This document shows positions 8,308 to 53,852 of a DNA stretch of 64,000 nucleotides, in pieces. Source of the DNA: Primula veris (taxonomy: Eukaryota; Streptophyta; Magnoliopsida; Ericales; Primulaceae). Both the position numbers and the translations under genes were made by a program. The notes beneath the pieces were generated by a model. That model saw only the letters and a program-made list of their open reading frames with translations, did no database searches and was not told where the DNA came from. How positions within the stretch are numbered: the first letter of the stretch is position 1; each line of letters begins with the position of its first letter. Location of the stretch: the NCBI GenBank assembly GCA_963682055.1, contig OY821746.1, positions 21,642,481-21,706,480 of the forward strand, given 5' to 3'.

Positions 8308-11300
8308 ATGTCTGGTTCCGAGGACGAAAGGACGAGGCTTTACCGAATCAGGAAAACAGTTTTGGAAATGCTGAAGGACAGGGGTTACATGGTTTTAGAT
8401 GATGAGATACAGATGACAATGGAGAAATTCATTAGAAAATTTGGTGAAACTATGAAAAGAGAAGACCTCATCGTCAACAGATCTAAGCAAAATGACAGTT
8501 CTGATCAGGTGTGATTCAGGATTTTAATGTTTTAAGGCCTTTGATATCTAAACTTTCGTTTCGTGTTACTTATTTAAATTCATTGTTGGTGGCATTTATT
8601 TAATTTTGATTGTATATATGCTCTGCTTGGCTGGTATATTCACATCTAATTTGTCCTTTTGTCGTGGGCCAGATCTATGTTTTCTTCCCTCAAGAGCCGA
8701 AAGTTGGTGTGAAAACAATGAAGACATATACCGAACGCATGAAATCAGAGAATGTTTTTCGAGCAATTCTGGTGGTTCAACAGAATCTCACTCCTTTTGC
8801 AAGGACTTGTATAACTGAAATCTCTACAAAATTTCACTTGGAGGTTTTCCAGGTAATTATGCATCCTTTGATATGCATATGAACATTTTTATCGGATATT
8901 ACAATTGTTTATTGGTAACGTCTTTATACGGTCAGCAAAATCTGAATCCAGTCTGAGACTCGTAGTTTGAAAAACAAAGTCGTAGTTCTGAAGACAAACT
9001 CGTGGTTCTGAAATCAAAGTCGTACTTCTGAAGTACGAGTCTTGACTTTTCTGGGTTGACTATTTAAATTATGATTATGTAAAGTTATGATTAGTGTTGT
9101 TGTAGTTACGGCATTTTTAATATTTTATTACTTACTTTCTAGTTGTCGCATTTGCTAGAAGAATGAAAAAGAATATATTAAATATTTGGTTGCTTAATGC
9201 GTTATTTCTACTGACTATTTGAGAACATGAAAACAATTTATTAATAAGTCGAAAGTTTTCGCGACCGATCACAAATAAGCTTTGCTTATTTTTGAAATCC
9301 TATAACCAAATAAAACTAAGTGAATCTTTCGTAGTTTCCAACATTATATGACTTGGACACTTGATCATTTTTAAACGGTAATTTAAACTATCTATATTTC
9401 ATTTTAACTGGAGTAATTTCAATATCGATAGTTATACTTAGTCCAACTTGAAAATATTGTCCTAAGAGTCAGATTTTGAAAAATCCGAGTCCTCTGATCA
9501 AAATTTTAAAACCGTCAAATGTGCACTCTCAAATAAATTTGTGAAGATACAACTATTTTTTTAAAGTTTATGTCATCGAGTCTGCTCAATATAGAAAACA
9601 TGCATATGTAACAAACTAGCACATAATAACATATATACTTTCAGCAACAATTTAGAGCTATGAAGTAATTTCAATGTCTATGTAACTGGAGTAATTTCAG
9701 CACATAATATCATAATTTAAATAGTCAACCCAGAAAAGTCAAGCCTCGTATTTCAGAAGTACGATTTTGTTTTTTAAACTACGAGTCTCAGACTGGATTC
9801 AGATTTTGCTGACTGTATAAAGACGCTACCTTGTTTATTCAGATGATGTTACTTCAAACTTCTCTAGAAGTTCTTAATTTTTTATTGTTATGTGAGTTTT
9901 TTACTCATTTTAATGTCCAAAGTCGGTTGCCATATCTGTTAACAGATGAATACAATATTTTGGGAAAATGCTTACACAAATTTTGGCGTATTGATCATGA
10001 ATGGATCAATGCACATGCAAAATACAACGATTATTAGGATATAATGTACATTTCCTTGTACAGGAGGCAGAGTTGTTGGTGAACATCAGTAAACATGTTC
10101 TAGTTCCAGAACACCAGCTCTTGACAAATGATGAAAAGAAGACTTTGTTGGAGAGATATACTGTGAAAGAAACACAGGTCTGATTGAGTTTTTGCGCTAC
10201 TCTTTTATATCAATCTGCCATCTGTAGTTTTACAAATCCTGGTCGAATGTGAGAAAAAAATTATATTATTTATCATCATAATTATCATTTCGACTGTTCT
10301 GCTGTTTGTTGAGCCTATGTTATGCCCATCAACCGTACTGTTAGTTAAATGAAATGCACATTATAACTCTTCTCAATTGCCATGGTTCATTAACTTCTCT
10401 AGGCAGTAAGGAAAGAAACCCAGTGTAAAGCTATGGGGAGATTTGATTGGGTTTCAATTTCTGAACATTGCCTTCTGAGTTCTTTTCCTAAAGACGCACA
10501 TACTCTGTCAGAGGTTTCTTATTTCCATGTTTCATATTTGATTGGGTTTTTGTTTTGACTTTTTTCCTTTTGAGGTTTCCCTGAAAACACACAAATCTAA
10601 TCAGAAGTTTACTATATTCATATATAACAGCATCTCAGATCCTCAAAAATCAGTTTCGGAGAATTCGCGAGACTGAACAATGCAGAAAGTCTTTCTGAAT
10701 TTTTTATTAATTGTTTCTGAAGGCTTAATACTAATTATGGTATAATAGTTGTTTGGAATATCTCAACTTTTGATTTTTATTAATTGTTAGGGTGTTTGTA
10801 TTACTGGGTAGGTTTTGGAAAATACTAACCATGCATAAATAGGTTTTTGTTATTTTATTACCATAATGTATTGTTTCTGAAGGCTTAATACTTACAGTGG
10901 TGTAATAGTTGTTTGGAATATATGAAGTTTTGATTTTGATTAATTGTTATGGAATTTGTATAACTGGGTAGGTTTTGGAAAATACTAACCATCCATAAAT
11001 AGGTTTTTGTTATTTTATTACCATATTGTATTGTTTCTGAAGGCTTAATACTAATTATGGTATAATAGTTGTTTGTAATATCTCAACTTTTGATTTTTCT
11101 TAATTGTTATGGTGTTTGTATTACTGGGTAGTATTTGGAAAATACTAACCATGCATAAATAGGTTTTTGTTATTTTATTACCATATTGTACAGTTTCTGA
11201 AGAGGCTTAATACTTACCGTGGTGTAATAGTTATTTGGAATATATTAAGTTTTGATTTTTATTGATTGTTATGGTGTTTGTATTTCTGGGTAGGTTTTGG

Positions 11301-12567
11301 AAAATACTAACTATGCATAATTTTATGTGATATCATAATCACGTGGGAATAGCAGTATAGCACAATTGTGATTTTGTGTAAAAAAAATTGCAAATTTTTT
11401 GGGGGTACTATTTTGGGTGTTCCTTTTTAAAAAAAGTGGACTGTTTGACAACTTCATTACAAATATGGATGACTGATTGAGTTAGTATTTTTTTATTTTG
11501 AAGTACAGATTTTTAGCATTTACTTGCTAAAAGAATTGGATTGAGATCTGTTTTGCATGATCTTTTGGATACTATTATGCCGTGTTCTCATTCTAAACGA
11601 GTGGACAATTTGACAACTATGTTTCATATGTGCATTATGTATTGAGTTCCGACGAAAGTATATCTTTATTTGAAGTATATATTGCTAGCATTGGCTCCAG
11701 AAAAAATTGAGTTAAGAGCGGTTCTGCAATTTTTGGATACTGTTATGCGTCTTCTTATTCGAAATGAGTGGACAATTTGACAACTTCATTACGTATTCTT
11801 AACTGATCAAAGGTTCGATGCTAGTTATTTTTTATTTATTAAAAATACCTATTGTTAACATTTATCATTGTCTCCATAAAAGAAACCGTGTTAAGAGATT
11901 TTATTCAAAACAATGATACATTTTTTTTCCTCATCCTATGTACCTTGTTCCCTTCACACATGCGTAATTAATGATAGATTTTTGTTCTAAATGCGGATTT
12001 TTCCATCTCGCTACTCCAAATTATTATTTGGTAAAAGTGTTAAAAAGAAGTAAATTTATTTTGAGTTAAATTTGGTGAACATTGCCTTCTGAGTTTTCTC
12101 CTAAAGACACCACACACGATCAAAAGTTTTCTTTTCTTTTCATGTTTGATTCTTAACTTTGTATTTCAGAGAGTATGTGAGACTGACTACTACGGGAAAT
12201 CTTGCTGAAACAAACCGACATTCCTCATGGAAAAAAAAGATAAAAGAAAATTCATATCCCCAAAATTCTTTTTGGAAGCCGTTTCTTTAAATTGTTAATT
12301 TGGGAACCCTACTAATATGGTCCCCATTTTTGTCTGTCATCCTTATAGGATCTACTCTTTAACTCATGATTTCTGCTTCATTTGTTTTATCAACTGATCC
12401 TAAATTCTCTCTTTCTATCCTTTGCTTTTGTTGGATTCCAGCTTCCTCGTATTCAGGTCACCGACCCAGTGGCGAAATATTATGGGATGAAGCGTGGACA
12501 AGTTGTGAGAATTACTCGTTCAAGTGAAACTGCAGGCCGCTATATCACATACCGCTATGTTGTCTAG
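8308..12567 (+). CDS. NRPB5: RNA polymerase subunit RPB5 (RPABC1), shared by Pol I, II and III
   Basis: Four exons, all joined by phase-0 GT-AG introns: 8308-8508, 8673-8852, 10064-10177 and 12442-12567. They encode 206 aa, close to the usual length of about 205. RPB5 is a subunit common to the nuclear polymerases and lies in the lower jaw near downstream DNA. Exons 1-2 give the N-terminal jaw domain (starts [17 protein letters not shown], then [17 protein letters not shown]). Exons 3-4 give the conserved C-terminal assembly domain, with [37 protein letters not shown] and the typical end YITYRYVV. The start is the first ATG after an acceptor at 8287 and begins the conserved N-terminus. Intron 2 contains a MULE MITE, and intron 3 contains a block copied from the leader intron. 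No disabling change is seen, so the gene should be functional. Confidence 0.95.
8914..9830. mobile_element. Non-autonomous MULE (MITE) in RPB5 intron 2
   Basis: A 917-bp element with inverted ends of about 130 bp (GGTAACGTCTTTATACGGTC on the left; the right end is the complement of GGTAGCGTCTTTATACAGTC). It is flanked by a perfect 9-bp TSD, TTGTTTATT, at 8905-8913 and 9831-9839; 9 bp is typical of Mutator-like elements. Inside the left arm are short tandem units based on TCGTAGTTCTGAA. There is no coding capacity. Exon 2 ends 61 bp before the element. Confidence 0.9.
10702..12075. repeat. RPB5 intron 3 copy of the leader-intron block
   Basis: Direct duplicate of about 6541-7650. The tandem part has expanded to four units here; TTGTTTCTGA starts near 10711, 10871 and 11031, and a variant starts near 11191, giving a period of about 160 bp. 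The sequence just before (10440-10700) and just after (12075-12230) the block is also related, sharing GAACATTGCCTTCTGAGTT, which suggests a second, smaller duplication around it. Confidence 0.8.
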
Positions 12568-30815: not shown

Positions 30816-36746
<5,931 letters not shown>

Positions 36747-38703: not shown

Positions 38704-41700
38704 TCATTTCCAGAAAGCCAGGATTGGCCTAGCAAATCCAGCTTTAGTGCCAGATAAGCGGGAAGTGATGTTTTCCACCGTTCTGAACCCAATCTGCCAC
38801 CCAGGAAAGATCATAAACATTAATCTATGACATATTTTGGGTTTAAAATCAACGAATAAAGATATAAGAATCTCTTTGTAAGGTTACACCAAGTGTAGCA
38901 GGTACCTTGTCCAGAAGAATTTCTTGGAAACTATCAGGATAGATCTTGATATCACGGTAATTAGTTTGTGACACCTGTGAATATATATTTGCAGAATGTT
39001 AAGGTTGATAACTAAAGAACACAAACGAACAAATGGATCCGGAAACTACTCAGATGCGCTATGTAAAATTTCAATATCAGAAAGTAACACAAACCAAGTG
39101 TTGGATCCGGAAACTACTCGGGGGGTGAACTATGTAAAATTGCAATATCCGTAATATTTGAGCCGCATCATAACTTTAAAAACCGAGATGCATCACATAT
39201 CAAATCCTATTATAGCTTCTCGTTCGGCTTCGGAACATATATTCTTATAATCTATAATGGGCTACTTTTTCACTATTTTGTTCCAAAAATCATTTCAATT
39301 TCGAGTAAGAACGGAATGTCAGAACCATTAGAGGACCCTACACGCTCCCCCTCTTCCTTTCGTTTCTTCATTGGTATATATACTTTATAGAATGGAACAA
39401 AGATAATGTTAAGAGGAAGTTGTACCTCAGATACAAGACGGTTTTTGTAGTAAGATTCCCATGGCTGGGGTTCCAGAATAAAGACTCCACCCTGTTCATT
39501 ATTAGTGCACATGAATATTGATAAGGGAAGGGGAAAACAAGATGATATCCAAAAAAAATAGAGCTTTTTTTTTTGGCAAAAAAGGCCAAAGTAGCAAAGA
39601 GAGTACCGGATGAAGAAGTTTCCAAACTTTTGAAAACAAAGTAATCAGTCCATCATCTCCCCAGTTCAAATGGATCCATTTTGACACACTTAAACTGTTC
39701 GAAGTCAAAACAACAAAAAAGGAAGACAAACTCAATACATGTGAAACATCACAGAGGACGTGAAATTTGATTAATATTCAATGTATACCTAAAATTTGGA
39801 TATTGGAATGATAAAGAGCTGATTTCAAGTGAAATTATGCATTCACAGAAACAAAACCCAACTAAACTTGATTACCCTTGATATCAATGTAGTTTATCGT
39901 TATAAAACAGATGGGTGAATCCGCCAATATTCTTTCTGTATTTTTACCCATATATATTATAAATGCTGAACCATTAATTGTGGCAGAACCAGGATTTACT
40001 TGTGGAAGGGGCTGAACTTCACAAGAACATGTCTATTATGTGGGGGGTTTAGGTAAAATGTGGTAAAACTCAAGTTTTTGCTCAGTATCTGGGGGTTGGT
40101 AATCCCTTTCAGCCTACTCAGAGTTCCTCCGATGCAGCTATAATTCTACTTTTAGAATACTCAAAACGAAAACTCAACCAAATAGACACTTATGTTTATC
40201 AGTATCCCATGTAGCACAGACATTTATTTTAGAATTTGTCCATCACAAGAAGTCCGCCTCATCTATTTTTACATTTACTCTCCAGATTAATACTGGAATT
40301 CACTTCATAAAACAAAATAACTTACCAAAGAATTGTATGGTAGCACTTATCGTCTGGTGATCTCCAATTCTGGACAAAATTTCCCTTTTGGAAAGTGACT
40401 ATGTTGAAAAGATCTTTTCCTTCGGGTACAGAATCAGCACCCGTACTTTTGTTGGTCTCTTCTTTTTGTGATCCAGTGGCAGCATGCTGAGCATCTTTAA
40501 CCACCTCCGTATTTTCTAATTGGGAAATCTTTGGAGAATTCTGGGAATTAGCACCCATACTTTTGTTGGTCTCTTCTTTTTGTGATCCAGTGGCAGCATG
40601 CTGAGCATCTTTAACCACCTTCGTATTTTCTAATTGGGAAATCTTTGGAGAGTTCTGGGAATTAGCACCCATACTTTCGTTGGTCTCTTCTTTTTGTGAT
40701 CCAGTGGCAGCATGCTGAGCATCTTTAACCACCTCCGTATTTTCTAATTGGGAAATCTTTGGAGAGTTCTGGGAATTAGTCACTCGTACAGTTCTTCTAA
40801 GAGTCCAGCAAGCATCCTGTACTCGATCTATGAGAAAAGGAAACACAAGCAACAATCAAATCCCAAAAATATCTTAAGTATATTGGTCGGATGTACAATC
40901 ACCGAATGTTACTACAAACCTAAAATTTTCTTTCGATGTACAATCTATAAACTAATTTCTGAATTGCAATAAATGTAGCAAGTAATTCTGAAAGCAAACA
41001 ATATTTTATAACAAACTAAAACCAATATTAATATAGTGAAGCATTGTCTATCAAGTCCAAGAAACCCCGGTAACCAGATATATATGATTTCTTGCTCAAG
41101 TAAGACATTATAAATAAAATACAAATTTTTGAAGCGACGAGATTATCTAATCATATACTAGTTTGGTGCTTTCTCGTGTACGTATGTGGAAAAGAGACCA
41201 TAACAATTTTTTAAAGTTGGTTTCCAGAGTAAACATACCACCGTCAATGTCGATTCCAAGGATGCTCCTGCAGCCAAACTTTTTTGCTGCAAATAAATAA
41301 ATTTCATAAAAAAAAAACTAAATAAACAAAAAGTTATAACCAGAATCACACTTTAATTTTTTTGGGGGGGCAACTTTAGATTGATCTCATATTAAATTGA
41401 ACTAAATTACAAACAGTGAGATATACAAGTTGAAGAAGAAAAAAGAGAAACTACTACATGAAAGGTCAGAGCCATTCGATTACAAATTCCTAGTTGAGGC
41501 AATTATAATTTCTTTGAATTTTATCAAAACATAAATTCATGTACATTTCAAAATCTATGCTGACATATAAAACAAAAAAAAGTATACATGCCACTACAAC
41601 AGATAGTTACGCGTACAAGTGGCATTTGTAAGACAATAATTATTTTAAAAAAATGCTAGGGAGAACATATAGCATCTTTGCGGAATTTCGACAATAGTCC

Positions 41701-44892: not shown

Positions 44893-44901
44893 AAAGCTAA
44901 C
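44893..44901. repeat. Left target-site duplication of the MULE
   Basis: AAAGCTAAC directly precedes the left terminus GAGGTGC. The right partner at 53844-53852 is AAAGCTAAT (8 of 9 bases identical). 9 bp is the classic Mutator length. Confidence 0.88.
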
Positions 44902-44944
44902 GAGGTGCACTTATTACACTACATAATTTCTGAAAAAACGCGTG

Positions 44945-45088
44945 AACCGTAGATTAAATCTACGGTTTACAGTGATCCACTGTAAATCGTAGATTTAATC
45001 TACGGTTTGTATTGATTTAATGCAAACCGTAGATTAAATCTACGGTTTACAGTGGATCACTGTAAACCGTAGATTTAATCTACGGTCT
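44945..45088. repeat. Four palindromes at the left MULE end
   Basis: Four near-perfect palindromes of the form AAACCGTAGAT-ATCTACGGTTT at 44945-44967, 44984-45008, 45024-45048 and 45064-45088. Two of the spacers are themselves palindromic (ACAGTGATCCACTGT and ACAGTGGATCACTGT). The right end keeps a single half-site, which makes the left terminus about 110 bp longer. Confidence 0.92.
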
Positions 45089-45748
45089 GTGTAATTTCAC
45101 AGATTTTTTGAAAATAAAAATTAAAATTAAAATTCTAATAATTAAAATTAAAATACTGAATATTTTTTTCAAATTAAACATGATTTTTTTTTTACATAAA
45201 AATGCCTTATATTTAAAATTTGATATTTTTTTCAAGTGTATAAGTTGATATTTTTTTCAAATAAGACATTTTGTTTTTTTCAAATTTAAAAACAAAATGA
45301 CTTATTTTTTAAATTTTACATAAAATAAATTACGAATATTCTAACAATCTGTAAAAATAAACACAAAATTTATACAAATTTACACAAAAAAAGTTGATTT
45401 GATAAATTTTATGTTTTTGGTTCATGTTATATTTTTGTCAAGTGTATAAGTTGATATTTATTGAATCATTAACTAAATCGTCAATTTTTGTGAAGTTTTT
45501 TTGGTTTGTATTTAACACTTGTATAACGCAATATGCAAACATGAATATAAACTTATAAATTTCATTAAACAAATTTATTAAACAAAATTTACAACAAAAT
45601 TTACAACAAAATTAAACAAAATTTACAACAAAATTTCATAGAACTAAATTTCATAAAACAAATTTATTAAACATTTGTTTACATCATATAAATTTACAAC
45701 AAATTGGAAAAAATAGTAATTTACATAAAATTAAAAATAAAAAACCGA

Positions 45749-48304
45749 TTATGGACTTAGGTCTATAGGTTCTTCATTTGCTTTTTTCTTCCCCGATTGC
45801 TTTTCCAGCGCCATATATAATTTGAAATTTGGTCGAAAAAGTTCCTTCCATGGCGCAGCTGCCTCAGTGCGTGTTTGTTCCCACCGTGCTATAATTCCTG
45901 GCATTGGGAAGATCCCTTCTTTAGGAATAACCTGAGCATAGTGACAACTGTTGACGAACACCATTACAGTCGGGATCCAATATGTCGTTCCCTGAGGCGG
46001 ACCAGTATAAAGAGGTAAAAAAGTAGAGTTCCACACGTTTACCTCTCCATTTTGATTTTCCCATAAGGACAACAATACAATTGGCATATTGTAATGAGAA
46101 GCAATTAAAAAACCATACGACGGAAATCTCATCCATTTCTCAGAAGGTGCGGGATTTGTAGCATGATAAAAATTTAAACTTGATAAAATGTAATCATACC
46201 GGTAAGCTTCAAAGTCAAGATTCTCAAACAGCTCATAATAAACACCTTTCATTTGCTGCAGCTCTTGAAACAATTCACATCTTACCGCGTACCAATCATC
46301 TTCCCCATGCTGTTTACCCGTCGCATTTGCAACTACCCGGAACCCACAGTTACCATCCCCACGCACATCATAAACCGTTTCGATGTAACTATGTAACATG
46401 AACCATATTTGGTCACTGTACAGGAAGGTTGGCCTATTGGGGGTGAGTTTAGGGTTCTGGTTTCGCGGCCTCCTAGTTGGGTTTACCCTTACCTCCGGTG
46501 TTTCATCCGCCTTGCCTTTACCCTTGTCCCTACTAGCACCAGCACTTTGTTCCTCCACATACTCCCATCCCGACTTATCCCTCTTACTAGATTTGTCGCC
46601 TTTTCTAGGTCTCCCCCTATTTGCTCTCACTTCGGGGTCACTGACGGATGTTCTGGCTGGTACGGTTATCTCTCGGAGTTGTGTTTTCATACGCCGTTTT
46701 TCAACATTCGTTTTGCTAGCATAAACACTTTTAAACTCTTCTAGATCACCCTCTACCCCATAATCATCGGTGTTCCCATTATCATCAATTACGTCTAATT
46801 TTTTCCAGAATGGATGAATATATTCTAGAGGAAGAGGCTTCCCGAATAAAATATGTTCACTCATAATATGATGACAAGGTAAACCGTGAGACAATTTAAA
46901 ACCGCAAGAACAATTCTCATCAGCCTGGCCACTACATTTTCTGTGTTCTTGGAATAATAAATCAAAGGCATAGTGTGTGATATACGACCTAAGATTTATA
47001 AATAGAGGCGTTTTTTCAGAATGTGGAAAATAAGACTTGCATTTATCCAACTTCGTCTTAATATCCTCAAACTGTTTTTCTAGAATTCTATTCACCTCTA
47101 CCCAAACAGTTTCAAGCGTGCCAGTATTAGTGGAAAGGGATCTTTTCAGCTTAGCATGTTGTTGTTCGGCTCGATTGCTAGTTCTGTTACCTAGATGTGT
47201 TGTGTGGTTGGTATAGCATGCAACAAACTTTTCAGCATAATCATTTAAAAGCTTGTCTACATACTTAATCACAGCAGGGTACGATTTGTAAGAGGTATTG
47301 AAATTAGTTCGGTTATAATTGTACTCCTCTATCGACTCAGAATCAACCAATAAACCCCAATCATCTAAAAACGTTTGCCACTCCTCGTCAGGGATCTTTT
47401 TACGGCAGTTTTTCAAAACATTTTTTGCAATATGAAAAGTGCACAAAATATGATGAGAATCGGGAAAAACAACGGATAAAGCATTTGATAAGGCCATTTC
47501 CCTGTTGGTTACAAACACCCTAGGTAGTATACACCCCTCCAATGTAACTTTAAATTTTTCCAATGCCCATATATAACTTTCTTGTGTCTCGTCACTCATG
47601 AAAACAAAACCTAAACAATATGTTTGGTTCGTTGATGTCATTCCTACGACTTCTAGAAATGACATATTAAAACGGTTTGTCCTATATGTACAATCCATTA
47701 ACAAGACATCAGGAAAAGCTTTGAACATCCTTATAGAATCGGGGTGTGCAAAAAACAAGTTCTCAAGGGAATGGGTTGATGGGTTCATATTATAGTAGAA
47801 CGTGTAGCGATGGCTATCCAACAAATTAAACAGTTCCTGTATCGGGTTTCTACCATATCGTTCTTTAAATTTCAGTCCGGCCAAAAAATTATGTATCGTT
47901 TTAGTGTTTGATACATTGTCAGGATTTCTATTTTTAATGGCCTCTAATATTGCACCAACTTTAAAACTACTTTGCCTTAAAGTTTTAACAATTTCTTTTT
48001 CATCTTGGGTTAAACGAGCACGTCGTGCTTGCCCTTGGAGGTAAGTTGGAGGTGGGTGGTTATGTTGTCCATTTTCTACGTGACACATCCATTCACCATT
48101 AACTACGTAACCTTTAATGAAAAATGGGCAATCTTTTTTCTTTGTACCTGATTTTACGGAAGATGGTTTCTTTTTTTCGTAAACCCCCGATTTATCACAC
48201 ACAATATCAACATACGGTGTTCTGCTCCCATCACCCCCTCCAGACCTACGAATCGTAAGGATGAAACCCCAATTTCCAGCCACATCAGCAAGATCAGCAA
48301 GCAT
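45749..48304 (-). CDS. MULE transposase fused to an OTU cysteine protease domain
   Basis: 851 codons without a stop from the ATG at 48304. The order is: FAR1/WRKY-GCM1-like zinc DNA-binding segment (about 10-85; Cys36, Cys59, HNH at 81-83); MULE DDE domain (about 195-385) with LLMDCTYRTN (D204) and the Glu of NRAEQQH (E380); SWIM zinc finger CSCG...CHH (C465, C467, C477, H479); an AT-hook-like RGRPRK (563-568); and an OTU-like domain (about 640-795) with GDGNCGFR (catalytic C653) and SCHYAQV (H788). The second DDE position, normally Asp in V-T-D-R-E, is Asn267. An upstream ATG at 48445 is in frame and opens an Asn-rich segment (MNYNYGYDNNQW), but a TAG at 48320-48322 interrupts it at codon 42. 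The original protein was therefore probably about 898 aa. Cleavage is likely lost; DNA binding and OTU activity could survive. Confidence 0.93.
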   Translation of the reverse strand: MLADLADVAGNWGFILTIRRSGGGDGSRTPYVDIVCDKSGVYEKKKPSSVKSGTKKKDCPFFIKGYVVNGEWMCHVENGQHNHPPPTYLQGQARRARLTQDEKEIVKTLRQSSFKVGAILEAIKNRNPDNVSNTKTIHNFLAGLKFKERYGRNPIQELFNLLDSHRYTFYYNMNPSTHSLENLFFAHPDSIRMFKAFPDVLLMDCTYRTNRFNMSFLEVVGMTSTNQTYCLGFVFMSDETQESYIWALEKFKVTLEGCILPRVFVTNREMALSNALSVVFPDSHHILCTFHIAKNVLKNCRKKIPDEEWQTFLDDWGLLVDSESIEEYNYNRTNFNTSYKSYPAVIKYVDKLLNDYAEKFVACYTNHTTHLGNRTSNRAEQQHAKLKRSLSTNTGTLETVWVEVNRILEKQFEDIKTKLDKCKSYFPHSEKTPLFINLRSYITHYAFDLLFQEHRKCSGQADENCSCGFKLSHGLPCHHIMSEHILFGKPLPLEYIHPFWKKLDVIDDNGNTDDYGVEGDLEEFKSVYASKTNVEKRRMKTQLREITVPARTSVSDPEVRANRGRPRKGDKSSKRDKSGWEYVEEQSAGASRDKGKGKADETPEVRVNPTRRPRNQNPKLTPNRPTFLYSDQIWFMLHSYIETVYDVRGDGNCGFRVVANATGKQHGEDDWYAVRCELFQELQQMKGVYYELFENLDFEAYRYDYILSSLNFYHATNPAPSEKWMRFPSYGFLIASHYNMPIVLLSLWENQNGEVNVWNSTFLPLYTGPPQGTTYWIPTVMVFVNSCHYAQVIPKEGIFPMPGIIARWEQTRTEAAAPWKELFRPNFKLYMALEKQSGKKKANEEPIDLSP

Positions 48305-48319
48305 TTCATCCCTTGTTTC

Positions 48320-48445
48320 CTAAGTCAATTCATCAACTTCAAAGTGCTCCGAATAATCAGTTAGCTCATCGTTTGAGCCACTGGATGAATTCGCATTGTT
48401 GTTGTTATTCCATTGGTTGTTGTCATAACCATAGTTGTAATTCAT
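48320..48445 (-). pseudogene. Original N-terminus of the transposase, cut off by TAG
   Basis: In frame with the transposase: ATG at 48445, then 40 further codons rich in Asn, Ser and acidic residues, ending DELT, then TAG. Five codons later comes the internal ATG at 48304. A single CAG-to-TAG change would explain the break. Confidence 0.7.
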
Positions 48446-48579
48446 TTTCGAAAAAGTGTTTGTTTGTATATTTTATTGGGGAGAAATGAGGATTTTTTTA
48501 GAGATTTCCGAAATGTGTTTGTGTTTGATTTTATGGTTTGTTAGAATTGGCAAAATTGAGTCATATTTATAGGGTAAGT

Positions 48580-49172
48580 TTACACTACAAACCGTAGATT
48601 ACTTTTACGGTTTGTAGTGAATTTTTGGTGTAGTCATTTCGAAACTTTAATAATGCATTGAGTAGTCATTTTCGGATAGGGTTGTCAAATCATAATAATT
48701 CAAAAGTGATAAGGTGTTGTCGGAATTATTTTGATAGATATGGTATCCAATGTAGTTTACACTACAAACCGTAGATTACTTTTACGGTTTGTAGTGTTTT
48801 TTTTGGAGTAGTCATTTCGAAACTTTAATAATGCATTGAGTAGTCATTTTCGGATAGGGTTGTCAAGTCATAATAATTCAAAAGTGATAATGTGTTGTCG
48901 GAATTATTTTGATAGATATGGTATCCAATGTAATTTACACTACAAACCGTATATTACTTTTACGGTTTGTAGTTTTTTTTTTTTTTTACGTTGTTTACGG
49001 TGATTCAGTGCAAAAAGTACATTCGTAAAACGTCGCTGCTCAAATCAGGGGTACAAACCGTACATTACTTTTACGGTTTGCACAAAATACATGCAAACCG
49101 TACATTTAATGTACGGTTTGTATGAAATCTGTACAAACCGTACATTAAATGTACGGTTTGTATGTATTTCAG
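48580..49172. repeat. Transposase upstream region: 178-bp tandem repeats and palindromes
   Basis: About 2.6 units of a ~178-bp tandem repeat, starting near 48583, 48762 and 48940. Each opens with the hairpin ACTACAAACCGTAGATTACT then TTTACGGTTTGTAGT. Three more hairpins of the AAACCGTACATT/AATGTACGGTTT type follow at about 49052-49165. The core AAACCGTA-AT matches the palindromes at the left end of the element. This lies just 5' of the transposase gene. Confidence 0.88.
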
Positions 49173-49173
49173 A

Positions 49174-49547
49174 ATATTTAGGGTTTTTTAGGGTTTAGGG
49201 TTTAGGGTTTAGGGTTTAGGGTTTAGGGTTTGTAATTTAGGGTTTAGGGTTTAGGGTTTTTAATATAGGGTTTAGGGTTTAGGGTTTGTAATTTAGGGTT
49301 TAGGGTTTATGGTTTGTAATTTAGGGTTTAGGGTTTAGGGGTTAGGGTTTGTAAATTAGGGTTTAGGGTTTACGGTTTAGCTTTTAGGGTTTAGGGTAAG
49401 TGGTTTGTAATTTAGGGTTTAGGGTTTAGGGTTAGGGTTTGTAATTTAGGGTTTAGGTTTTAGGGTTTGTAATTTAGGGTTTAGGGTTTGTAATTTAGGG
49501 TTTAGGGTTTAGGGTTTAGGGTTTAGGGTTTAGGGTTTGTAAAAACT
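49174..49547. repeat. Telomere-like TTTAGGG array inside the MULE
   Basis: About 370 bp of TTTAGGG units (plant telomere type), interrupted at intervals by GTAATTTAGGG-like joints. It lies between the transposase upstream region and the 3' end of the PMD gene. Because it is internal to a transposon and flanked by element sequence, it is not a chromosome end. Confidence 0.93.
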
Positions 49548-49755
49548 CAATATTGGTCATATCAATTAAAATACAGAATATTTTTTACCCTAAAACATAC
49601 AAATCAAACATACGAATCAAATTAAACTTACGAATTTATAACGTACAAATCAAACATAGAAATCAAATTAAACCTACGAATTTATAATATTCCAACCCTA
49701 GCTAATAATAAAACTGACAAATCAAACATAGAAATCAAATACAAAAACAGTGCAT

Positions 49756-52104
49756 TTATTTTTTTTTGTAACGACTAAATGTTTTAAAGTTGGACATAGG
49801 GAGCATCTTTCCCGCCGATGTTAATCTATCGGATGACGGCTCAGCAGACTCTTCGATTTCGTTTAGCTCCGTACGCCGTCTTTGTCGCTGCTGCGATTCT
49901 GGATGCGGCGCACGCTCGTGGGATGTAACTGTCAACCCTCGACTCCAACTGTCGGTTGACTGATGACTAGGATGATGCTCGAACTGGACATCATCCTGAA
50001 CGTAGCCCGACCCAGCAAAAGAAGCACGACGACCATGACCGCTTGAACTCGGACCCGGACCCTGATCTGTAGTCGGGGGTCGACCTCCACTGGTTCTTCT
50101 ACCGCCGCTACTAGATTCGCCTTCCCCTCTGCCTCTTTCGTCGGGACGCCGACAACTTGCCGACCTAGTGTAATTTCTTGGGTCGTAACGTAGGTCGTCA
50201 TCACCATCGTCGTCGTCGTCGTCGTCATCGTCATCCTCCCCCTCCGACTGTTCATCAGCTGACCCATACGGATTCATACCCATTTCAGCGAACTCCTTAC
50301 GTAGTAAGTCCACGTCCGTTTTCATTTTCGCCCGTTTGAACGATTTGAAACTGCGGCGCAACATCGCTTTCTGTAAAAAAAAACAATAAAAAACGATTTA
50401 TTAGTATTGAAATATACATAAAAAGAAGTAACGATTTATTAGTAAAAAACGATTTAGTAGTTACCATTTTATTGAAGACACCCGTATTCTCCCGGAAACC
50501 GTGAGGGGGCGGGGCAAGTTCAGGTGGGTTTATGAAGATGCGGGTCCGCTCTCTATACCATTTCATGTAACCCGGTGACGTCCCCGTGCCATATTCGCCG
50601 TTAATAAGACGGGTGTGGCGGTCATTCCACACGACTATAAATTCTCCGGTTAGTAAAGGCCAGTCGTGTTTTTGCCCAATCCCATATCTTCTATCCTTGC
50701 CGTGACCCTGTCTTGGTTTCCAGATATACGTAGGGACCCGCTACACAAAACCGAACTGCCTCATGAACCTGTCCGCGGGGTGGTACTCAATCTTCTCATT
50801 ACAAATGAGAGGCACAGAACAATGCCACATATACCGGCCCCGCGTGCAGTATTCCGGATACTGATTAAGATCCCCGTAAGGTTGCCACACTATCTGTAAT
50901 CATCAAATTAGAATATATAAACAATGGTTTAAAAATAGACGAGTAATAAATTCTGCGAAGATAAGACCAATGCAAACATATACAACATATAATACGTAAG
51001 TTACATATAATACGAAAATTATAATTTACCTGTTCAGGCGACATATTGTCAAACTGGTCACGTATGTGGACCACATTATGTCCGTAGACATATGGCGTAA
51101 GGTTAGTTTGCCGCCACATCTTCCATCTGTAATATACAAACAAAAACCGATAAACAATAAATATAACCGGCAGCTAAGTAAATGATAGATGACACAATAA
51201 TATAAAAAAGCAAATCCAATTAAAAAACTAAATAAATATCATACCTGTAACCGAGGGGGAACCTAGGCAAGCCCTCCGGTGGCTCGACATCTTCCGGCAG
51301 CTCTTCACACGGTCTAACCGGCAGTAGTCTGGTAATCGCCCACATATCCAGAAACATAACCGCCCCGCTTACTCCGGTTGTCTTACAACGTACCACCCTG
51401 CATAGATTAGCCTCTAACCAGGCCAGAAGAGCTGATCCCCAACTATACTCAGCACATGTGTCAAAATCCTCCAGAAATGGCAGAGGCCAGAGTGGAATCT
51501 GATCACTGCTCTTATCCGAAAACACATGTGCAGCCAGTAATAATAGCATGGCAGCCCTAGACTGATATAGTAAACGCTCCTCACTAGGGTTGGGGGGTAA
51601 TTCACCGAAGGTCTGTAACATCCAATCAAGTCTAACTGTCAGACAGTTTTGATCGACTTGATTGTCAGCCGGCCTAACACCCAACAAACTCTCCATCATA
51701 GCCAACCTGCTCGCCTTCGTGTCATTCCGCTCCGACCGGGTCACAGCAAGACCATCCACCCTCAGACCGAGCATAATCTCTACATCCTGTAAAGATATCC
51801 CCAACTCTCCCCCGACAAAATGGAACGTGTGCGACTCATCACGCCACCTATCAACTAAGGCTGTAATCAACCCTCGGTCTACGGTATAATTACCTATACT
51901 GTAAATACCGTAAAAACCAGCCCTAATGATATTATGAACTACCCTTTCAGGCGTCGGTATCTGCCAACTATAATTATAAACCCTAATCTTATTGGCATCT
52001 CCTCTACCCGCTTCTCTGCCAGCATCCCAAGTCTGATTAGAAATGTGACCGGTCTGTCGTAAAATACCCAACCTCCCTTTAATCTGTGGACCTGGGTCTG
52101 TCAT
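49756..52104 (-). pseudogene. Plant mobile domain (PMD, MAIN/MAIL-type) gene inside the MULE, one nonsense codon
   Basis: Four exons on the minus strand: 52104-51245, 51126-51030, 50893-50465 and 50370-49756, with GT-AG junctions and consistent phase (667 codons including the stop). The start MTDPGPQIKGRLG is chosen over an ATG 21 codons upstream because the preceding residues are hydrophobic and unlike PMD proteins. PMD hallmarks: ALVDRWRDESHTFHF, GELGISLQDVEIMLGLRVDG, YSWGSALLAWLEANLCR, WKMWRQTNLTPYVYG and MSPEQIVWQPYGD. The C-terminal exon is hydrophilic, with a run of 12 acidic residues. A TAG at 50743-50741 (codon 370) follows FGFV where a Gln is expected; the frame continues intact for 296 more codons, so the gene is otherwise well preserved. 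Host relatives (MAIN, MAIL1) act in genome stability and silencing; the function of transposon-borne PMD proteins is not established. Confidence 0.88.
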
Positions 52105-52224
52105 CCTAACTATGATAACCAAATATAACTCAATTAATGATAACCAAAAAAATGATAACATAACCAATTAATGATAACCAAACAATGATAATTCAATGAT
52201 AACCAAACAATGATAACTCAATTA

Positions 52225-53115
52225 TAACCAATTAATGATAACCAAACACACATTTTTTCATAAACCAAACAATAATAATTAAATTTTTTAATGATAACCA
52301 AACACACATTTTTTCATAAACCAAACAATAATAATTAAATTTTTTAATGATAACCAAACACACATTTTTTCATAAACCAAACAATAATAATTAAATTTTT
52401 TAATGATAACCAAACACACATTTTTTCATAAACCAAACAATAATAATTAAATTTTTTAATGATAACCAAACACACATTTTTTCATAAACCAAACAATAAT
52501 AATTAAATTTTTTAATCATAACCAAACACACATTTTTTCATAAACCAAACAATAATAATTAAATTTTTTAATGATAACCAAACACACATTTTTTCATAAA
52601 CCAAACATAATAATTAAATTTTTTAATCATAACCAAACACACATTTTTTCATAAACCAAACAATAATAATTAAATTTTTTAATCATAACCAAACACACAT
52701 TTTTTCATAAACCAAACAATAATAATTAAATTTTTTAATCATAACCAAACACACATTTTTTCATAAACCAAACAATAATAATTAAATTTTTTAATCATAA
52801 CCAAACACACATTTTTTCATAAACCAAACAATAATAATTAAATTTTTTAATGATAACCAAACACACATTTTTTCATAAACCAAACAATAATAATTAAATT
52901 TTTTAATCATAACCAAACACACATTTTTTCATAAACCAAACAATAATAATTAAATTTTTTAATCATAACCAAACACACATTTTTTCATAAACCAAACAAT
53001 AATAATTAAATTTTTTAATCATAACCAAACACACATTTTTTCATAAACCAAACAATAATAATTAAATTTTTTAATCATAACCAAACACACATTTTTTCAT
53101 AAACCAAACAAAAAT
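52225..53115. repeat. 56-bp minisatellite, about 16 copies, upstream of the PMD gene
   Basis: Nearly identical 56-bp units containing AACCAAACACACATTTTTTC and ATAATAATTAAATTTTTTAA. The main variants are TTAATGATAACC versus TTAATCATAACC, and one unit lacks a base. The homogeneity suggests recent expansion. It begins about 120 bp 5' of the PMD start codon. Confidence 0.96.
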
Positions 53116-53159
53116 AATTCAATTTTTTAATCATAACCAAACACATTCTCAACAATTCA

Positions 53160-53470
53160 AATTAACCAAACAAAATAAAAAAACATGCAAAAATGGGACA
53201 AATATCAACAATTATTAAAATTTCTATAATTAATATAAACAAACAACAAACAATTATATATAGCTAAGTGAATTATGGTTTTGCATATTTTATATATTTT
53301 TTCCTATTTTACAAATTAAAATTACAAAAAATAAAAAAACATGCAAAAATGGGACAAATATCAACAATTATTAAAATTTCTATAATTAATATAAACAAAC
53401 AACAAACAATGATATATAGCTAAGTGAATTATGGATTTGCATATTTTATATATTTTTTCCTTTTTTACAA
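53160..53470. repeat. ~160-bp direct repeat in the MULE
   Basis: About 53165-53308 and 53328-53462 are near-identical, sharing AACATGCAAAAATGGGACAA, TTCTATAATTAATATAAACA and TATAGCTAAGTGAATTATGG. Confidence 0.9.
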
Positions 53471-53694
53471 ATTTAAATTACACAAAAAACATAATAAATT
53501 AGAGAATAAAAGATATACCCTTGAATTATGGATAAGTTTGATTGATGATTTGGGGTTTTTTGTTAATAAAGTTGATAGTTAATGTGGTTGATTGATTTGG
53601 GTGATTTTTTGGGTTGAAAATTGGGGGTTTTTGAGAGAAAGAGAGAGAGTGTAGAATAAAATTTAATTTTTTTTAAAAAATTCGTAACTTTCTG

Positions 53695-53790
53695 TTTTTT
53701 CCAGGGACTGTCTGTGTAATTTTTGCAGGGACTGACTGTGTAATTTTGAAAAGCAGGGACTGACTGTGTAATTTTCAAAAAAATTACACA
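53695..53790. repeat. Right subterminal repeats of the MULE
   Basis: Three copies of GGGACTG-CTGTGTAATTTT followed by an inverted ATTACACAGACCGTAG that matches the left-end wording CTACGGTCTGTGTAATTT. Confidence 0.85.
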
Positions 53791-53843
53791 GACCGTAGAT
53801 TGTGCGTTGATACAGAATTTTTGTAGTGCTTTAAGAGCACCTC

Positions 53844-53852
53844 AAAGCTAAT
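53844..53852. repeat. Right target-site duplication of the MULE
   Basis: AAAGCTAAT directly follows the right terminus GCACCTC; it pairs with AAAGCTAAC at 44893-44901. Confidence 0.88.

Follow-up and report, generated by a model that had tools for sequence, protein, structure and literature searches.

The window, a 64,000-nucleotide stretch of Primula veris DNA, contains at positions 44902-53843 a bounded Mutator-like element (MULE) whose boundaries are exact. It carries two genes on one strand, a transposase gene with an OTU-like C-terminus and a separate PMD gene with introns, together with several noncoding repeat arrays. Copies with both genes recur in the same genome, and the variable sites of the PMD gene show purifying selection, as do those of the transposase gene. 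The features, by window coordinates and by strand where one applies, are as follows.

44893..44901: left target-site duplication AAAGCTAAC, 8/9 identical to the right flank
44902..45100, plus strand: left terminal inverted repeat with ~40-bp palindromic units (AACCGTAGATTAAATCTACGGTT); 40 scored genome places at 95-100%
45749..48445, minus strand: transposase gene, 898 codons, MULE DDE domain and OTU-like C-terminus; TAG at codon 42 (48320-48322), Asn at the second Asp position (47504-47506)
45749..46435, minus strand: OTU-like domain (DVRGDGNCGFR ... NSCHYAQV); its profile finds OTU deubiquitinases in the PDB; Cys and His kept
48577..49165: transposase gene, 5' region; palindromes and 178-bp tandem units; contains five CACTACA/TGTAGTG motifs, which also occur at the two ends
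49187..49538, plus strand: telomere-like array (TTTAGGG)n, degenerate
49756..50370, minus strand: PMD exon 4, acidic and basic tail
50465..50893, minus strand: PMD exon 3; TAG at 50741-50743 in the window copy
51030..51126, minus strand: PMD exon 2
51245..52104, minus strand: PMD exon 1, matching Pfam PMD; 136 scored genome places
52232..53145: 56-bp tandem array upstream of the PMD gene, 16.3 units in the window copy
53172..53488: 156-bp repeat, two units
53696..53843, minus strand: right end with 24-28-bp repeats, lacking the palindrome units found in other copies
53844..53852: right target-site duplication AAAGCTAAT, 8/9 identical to the left flank

The end pattern matched the window twice, at 44902 (plus strand) and 53843 (minus strand), and was absent from all 100 shuffles. 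The outermost 40 bases of each end, aligned without gaps, are identical at 31 positions, and the local score of 22 between the ends was reached by 0/3000 random pairs (best random score 20). The two 9-bp flanks of the window copy would agree at 8 of 9 positions by chance with a probability of ~0.0004. Together with these ends and duplications, a MULE-type DDE transposase domain (Pfam MULE, PF10551, 4.2e-27, in an 856-aa frame at 45749-48319 on the minus strand) assigns the element to the MULEs. Shuffles, end alignment and flank comparison thus bear out the initial annotation, which had described a MULE with matching inverted ends and a 9-bp duplication of 8/9. Its OTU-fused transposase and PMD gene on one strand and its TTTAGGG-like array were also recovered, the OTU part by a profile search and without a Pfam OTU match. 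The description of the element as structurally complete is true of the ends but not of the genes, as detailed below.

The ends of the window copy are asymmetric. Within the last 330 bp of the right end, 2-5 palindromes were present in 17/17 other copies with a located right end, and 0 in the window copy. The right end was scored at 40 genome places; in 15 of them, the last 43 bases matched separately, indicating extra sequence between query bases 147 and 148, and in the six copies inspected the palindromes sit in that extra sequence. In copy L037 the ends are longer and near-mirror, palindromes included. Because of the palindromes in all 17 other right ends and the near-mirror ends of L037, the lack of right-end palindromes is best read as a loss in the window copy. 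The asymmetry that had been noted earlier therefore describes this copy but not the family, in which a palindrome array stands at both ends.

The PMD gene consists of four exons (52104-49756, minus strand) separated by GT-AG introns, and a frame at 51220-52167 (minus strand) matches Pfam PMD at 1.3e-41. The window copy is coding-dead: each gene contains an in-frame premature TAG, at codon 42 of the transposase and at codon 370 of PMD, and the transposase has Asn in place of the second Asp, which we take to be a catalytic residue of MULE transposases. Asp occupies this position in 5/5 aligned database relatives and is kept in 17/17 other family copies of equal frame length. Database protein P0001, an 898-aa protein in an ENA contig, is 98% identical and differs by 11-17 residues from 18 family frames of the same length. 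A common origin of the two TAG codons, each from the same codon in a CHG-methylation context, was considered; for the transposase it was abandoned, since P0001 has another residue there.

We searched the same 436.5-Mb genome for further copies. The left 199 bp were scored at the best 40 of 1305 candidate places, so that copy numbers are lower bounds; the window scored 100%, 16 places 99%, 4 places 98% and 19 places 95-97%. From these we fetched 24 other copies: 20 with 98-99% left-end identity (L009-L028), with five right-hand extensions, and 4 of the 19 less similar ones. The transposase was present in all 24 and the whole PMD region in 22, L015 having a deletion in this region and L011 only the PMD 3' end; the make-up of a Pack-MULE (no transposase, gene fragments) is therefore not that of the element. 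In the first 20 copies, transposase, telomere-like array and PMD sequence were found in 20/20 and the whole PMD region in 18. The right end could be located in 17 of them, and 16 of these showed identical 9-mers at the exact ends, while L016 was offset. All four less similar copies contained the transposase and PMD exon 1; L035 had a 9/9 duplication, L037 both ends without a clean duplication, and in the other two no right end could be located within the stretch. Altogether, both ends were located in 19 of the 24 copies, and 17 of the 19 are flanked by 9/9 duplications, all mutually different.

The transposase frame was fully open in 13 of the first 20 copies, PMD was open with an ATG in 14, and both were open in 9. 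Transposase genes of subfamily A differ by a mean of 0.23%. PMD exon 1 was 98-100% identical at the best 136 of 1303 candidate places (window included) and free of stops at 134 of them; L037 is not among these places, which are thus the best matches only. We conclude that the MULE family is real and, judged by its sequences, young and probably autonomous. The initial annotation had suggested looking for several full copies with the same ends, both genes and unique 9-bp duplications; such copies exist, and they exclude its counter-case that no second locus pairs these ends with both genes. No related loci were found in viral contigs.

Both genes carry a signature of constraint. Of the 82 variable PMD sites in the open copies, 39 are nonsynonymous; the share expected from the same base changes is 0.73, and 0/20000 simulations gave a value as low; for transposase residues 1-679, the corresponding values are 26/55 against 0.72 (p 5e-5). 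With broken copies included, the transposase gave 35/68 nonsynonymous sites (p 0.0002). The mean pairwise ratio of nonsynonymous to synonymous polymorphism (pN/pS) in open and broken copies was 0.205 (0.107-0.402) for transposase residues 1-580 and 0.215 (0.116-0.428) for PMD residues 1-470, with L011, L017 and L023 left out of the transposase set and L011 and L015 out of the PMD set. The broken copy L037 gave 0.19 for residues 304-679, 0.93 for the OTU part and 0.38 for PMD exon 1. Because PMD sites show purifying selection, as the transposase does, PMD is most likely a maintained part of the element. PMD types do not track the transposase subfamilies (L009-L028), and none of the fixed differences between the two subfamilies lies in PMD. 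Since PMD types and transposase subfamilies disagree, their pattern suggests that the elements are mosaics created by gene exchange between copies.

In the PMD trees, the window PMD stands on a long branch without a starred grouping. It falls on the side of the PP7-long-form-like and Vitis MULE PMDs, a placement that bears on membership in PMD clade C and is given by a long branch in a tree without named A/B/C references. Three PMD genes of the same genome with long single frames lie on the opposite side as a separate clade (100/100). Two groupings were tested after the first tree; one had already appeared with support 33/13, and the other was not rejected (approximately unbiased test, p-AU 0.39). 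A close host parent was not among the six other PMD places fetched (best 36% identity); these derive from the best 117 of 1944 candidates scored, so that one may exist. Among database matches to the PMD, 3/43 carry a MULE or MuDR domain according to precomputed Pfam annotation.

Further PMD sequences were seen in the same genome. PMD clusters unlike the element PMD occur in G000 on C7 (~5.95-6.2 Mb), C12 (~1.04-1.08 Mb) and C6 (~23.4-23.7 Mb), and some of the matches on C7 and C12 contain long single open frames; the clusters are possibly tandem host families. L041 and L042 contain shorter PMD frames (265 and 281 aa) with 35-36% identity to the element PMD, similar frames occur at several other places, and these possibly belong to another repeat family.

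The C-terminus of the transposase was characterized by a profile of four OTU-like C-termini, one Puccinia relative included. At E<=1 this profile retrieved eight PDB sequences: three of VCPIP1 (best 4e-4), two of OTUD5, one of OTUD3 and two of viral RNA polymerases, which are presumably OTU-bearing. The motif DVxGDG[NH]C and a downstream His are invariant in the four-sequence alignment. The Cys and His, which we take to be the catalytic residues, are kept in 18/18 same-length frames (window included) and also in Puccinia P0005 and Phlomoides P0003. Pfam OTU gave no match at E<=0.01 in the window protein or at E<=5 in P0001, and Puccinia P0002 gave a weak otubain match below threshold (0.041). 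A protein search with the OTU-like C-terminus returned only the query P0001 itself. An AlphaFold2 model of the domain was poor (mean predicted local distance difference test score, pLDDT, 41), and Foldseek found 0 PDB matches at E<=0.001 with this low-confidence model. The OTU identity is thus an assignment made from sequence. The Puccinia striiformis MULE proteins P0002 (in part) and P0005 share the transposase type and the OTU-like C-terminus with the plant element, and because of this the transposase-OTU fusion may be old or horizontally shared.

Judged by its variation, the OTU part is the least constrained coding part of the element. It is possible, without being our preferred view, that the domain is no longer an enzyme and drifts as a structural tail. 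Its pN/pS in open and broken copies was 0.715 (0.333-1.741, mean pairwise), and fixed differences between the two subfamilies number 11 nonsynonymous and 4 synonymous in the OTU part versus 3 and 8 in transposase residues 1-679 (Fisher 0.045). In addition, the OTU part is incomplete in two database relatives, P0004 lacking the Cys segment and P0002 the His region. However, the conserved Cys and His argue against loss of function, rapid change around a kept active site would equally fit diversifying selection, and fixed and polymorphic counts do not differ significantly within the OTU part (Fisher 0.72) or within transposase residues 1-679 (p 0.10). The role in host manipulation that had been proposed for the OTU domain is accordingly weak: the active-site residues are retained, but constraint is low and the fold was not modelled with confidence.

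Much of the noncoding DNA of the element is repetitive. The telomere-like array and the block of palindromes and 178-bp units both lie between the transposase and PMD genes, and 32 of the 38 TTTAGGG occurrences on the plus strand of the window are inside the array, which measured 238-1045 bp in 17 copies and was read in the other 3 of the first set. The unit number of the 56-bp array varies among copies from 0 to 27 (strict count). All 13 matches to AACCGTA[GC]ATT in the window, on both strands, are inside the element. Of the 15 occurrences of CACTACA/TGTAGTG in the window, the element ends account for two, the 5' region of the transposase gene for five and its coding region for one. We infer that these noncoding repeats have binding or regulatory roles. 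In L010, a related palindrome-like sequence was seen beyond the 3' end, close to where the stretch stops and the right end had been expected; it is perhaps a second element nearby or nested.

Taken together, we consider it roughly 60% probable that the window element is a degenerate member of a probably autonomous MULE family that amplified recently and whose selected PMD gene supports the element against host silencing. In this working model, the transposase would bind the palindromic and CACTACA motifs that lie at the two ends and in the 5' region of its gene, and would cut and insert the element, producing the 9-bp duplications that we observed. Judged by its sequence evolution, the PMD protein most likely works for the element and is not cargo. 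Its most likely task would be to counteract silencing of the element by the host or to promote expression of the element, presumably through mimicry of, or competition with, host PMD complexes (MAIN/MAIL1-PP7L); the repeat arrays might guide it, as VANDAL repeats guide VANC. The OTU part could strip the transposase or its neighbours of ubiquitin-like tags, or could be a decaying accessory. The initial annotation had already proposed that PMD manipulates host silencing; selection on PMD is now indicated, whereas the manipulation itself we infer. We regard as doubtful a wider version, namely an independent further PMD uptake by a ZSWIM/FAR1-related, OTU-armed MULE, with PMD counter-silencing addressed to the palindromic, telomere-like and 56-bp arrays and the OTU part diversifying against host ubiquitin-like control.

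Several points weigh against this explanation or parts of it. The copies were chosen by high left-end identity, and exon 1 was scored at the best 136 of 1303 candidate places; both bias the shares of open frames upward. Variable sites are not independent, given shared ancestry and PMD types that cross subfamilies, and depletion is weaker when broken copies are included (PMD 1-470, 30/52 against 0.72, p 0.02). OTU variable sites do not depart from the neutral expectation, with 20/29 nonsynonymous against 0.79 in open copies (p 0.12) and 24/36 in all copies (p 0.07). Finally, the FAR1 domain has no Pfam call in the window protein, nor in P0001 at E<=5; the FAR1 relation of the transposase is suggested by its relatives P0002 and P0011, in which FAR1 is called above the Pfam cut-off.

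Among the alternatives for the PMD gene, the one that fares best is a requirement for the transposition reaction itself, as a helper like mudrB, the second gene of MuDR, and not against silencing. Purifying selection on PMD about as strong as on the transposase would fit such a role, and a function in integration is reported for mudrB (PMC6446971). However, MAIN and MAIL1, which are host PMD proteins, have a link to silencing and, in the portion of the account available (PMC5418596), none to DNA cutting, and we consider the helper role rather unlikely. Very improbable, in our view, is a captured passenger of the Pack-MULE transduplication type that is functionless for the element. Capture of host genes is frequent in MULEs and the PMD introns are expected after capture at the DNA level, but the nearly stop-free exon-1 places, the depletion of nonsynonymous sites and the retention of PMD in all four less similar copies speak against it. 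A chance nesting of two elements, or a MULE that happens to lie next to a host PMD gene, for which the palindrome block in mid-element (48577-49165) might be cited, is scarcely credible and was rejected, as the same gene order within the same outer ends, flanked by 9-bp duplications, recurs across copies.

We compared the PMD-carrying element with known systems. PMD in MULEs is already known (PMC5418596; PMC6446971), and it is the combination that is new relative to the portions of these papers available. In the open-licence literature, we found no description of a ZSWIM/FAR1-related transposase fused to OTU with a separate, selected PMD gene; no paper turned up on PMD together with OTU and transposition, and those on PMD with MULEs or transposases, on telomere-like arrays in MULEs and on OTU in MULEs likewise leave the combination undescribed. 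The earlier remark that the arrangement may be undescribed thus holds for the combination but not for PMD in MULEs, and one MULE group has an ovarian-tumour gene. Table 1 of Dupeyron 2019 (PMC6446971) gives PMD for groups 42 and 45-50 and for neither 35 nor 36; MuDR-6_HM is its sole entry with an ovarian-tumour gene. Ikeda et al. 2017 (PMC5418596) speculated that PMD encoded by transposable elements counters silencing, and Nicolau 2021 suggested counter-silencing by such PMDs.

The angiosperm PMD-carrying MULEs (PMC5418596; PMC6446971, groups 42 and 45-50) resemble the Primula element in having a PMD coding region within a MULE and a 9-bp target-site duplication. As far as described there, their PMD forms a fusion with the transposase (Ikeda) or often runs antisense (Dupeyron), and the groups bear names such as MUDR, MDR and VANDAL, whereas the Primula element has a ZSWIM/FAR1-related transposase, an OTU-like domain and a separate, intron-bearing PMD gene on the same strand. 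Among the database relatives of its transposase are proteins from Puccinia, Rhododendron and Phlomoides and an FHY3-like protein. In the transposase tree, it grouped with all 13 database relatives, far from two Vitis MuDR-type PMD fusion proteins (100/100), and the nearest rows after P0001 were Phlomoides proteins (85/99, not starred); long branches meet in this tree, and the Puccinia rows take no settled place. These relatives agree in kind with Dupeyron groups 35 (Hop, sub-group 'plants, Phytophthora, Puccinia and Fungi') and 36 (Jittery), a likeness by kind of relatives from a tree without named group members; unlike the Primula element, neither group has PMD or OTU in the table. PMD is here joined to a transposase type for which that survey gives none.

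Other MULEs offer partial parallels. VANC proteins of Arabidopsis bind noncoding VANDAL regions that form tandem repeats (Sasaki 2023, PMC10398659), and those elements likewise combine an extra gene with variable tandem repeats in noncoding DNA; the extra protein of the Primula element is however a PMD by Pfam, and the likeness is one of description. KIU/ULP1 MULEs (PMC13317346) also contain a protease domain of the ubiquitin-like system, as described of ULP1 type, whereas that of the Primula element is of OTU type and fused to the transposase. With many near-identical copies, open frames and purifying selection on PMD, this young family makes counter-silencing by transposon PMDs directly testable.

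Outside the element, the window contains further repeats. A 114-bp repeat at 40431-40779 (3.1 units, 97% alike) falls within a minus-strand open frame of 177 aa, which matched no Pfam family above the cut-off. A 160-bp tandem repeat of 3.8 units is located at 10710-11320, and tandem repeats of 71-112 bp occupy 31926-32606.

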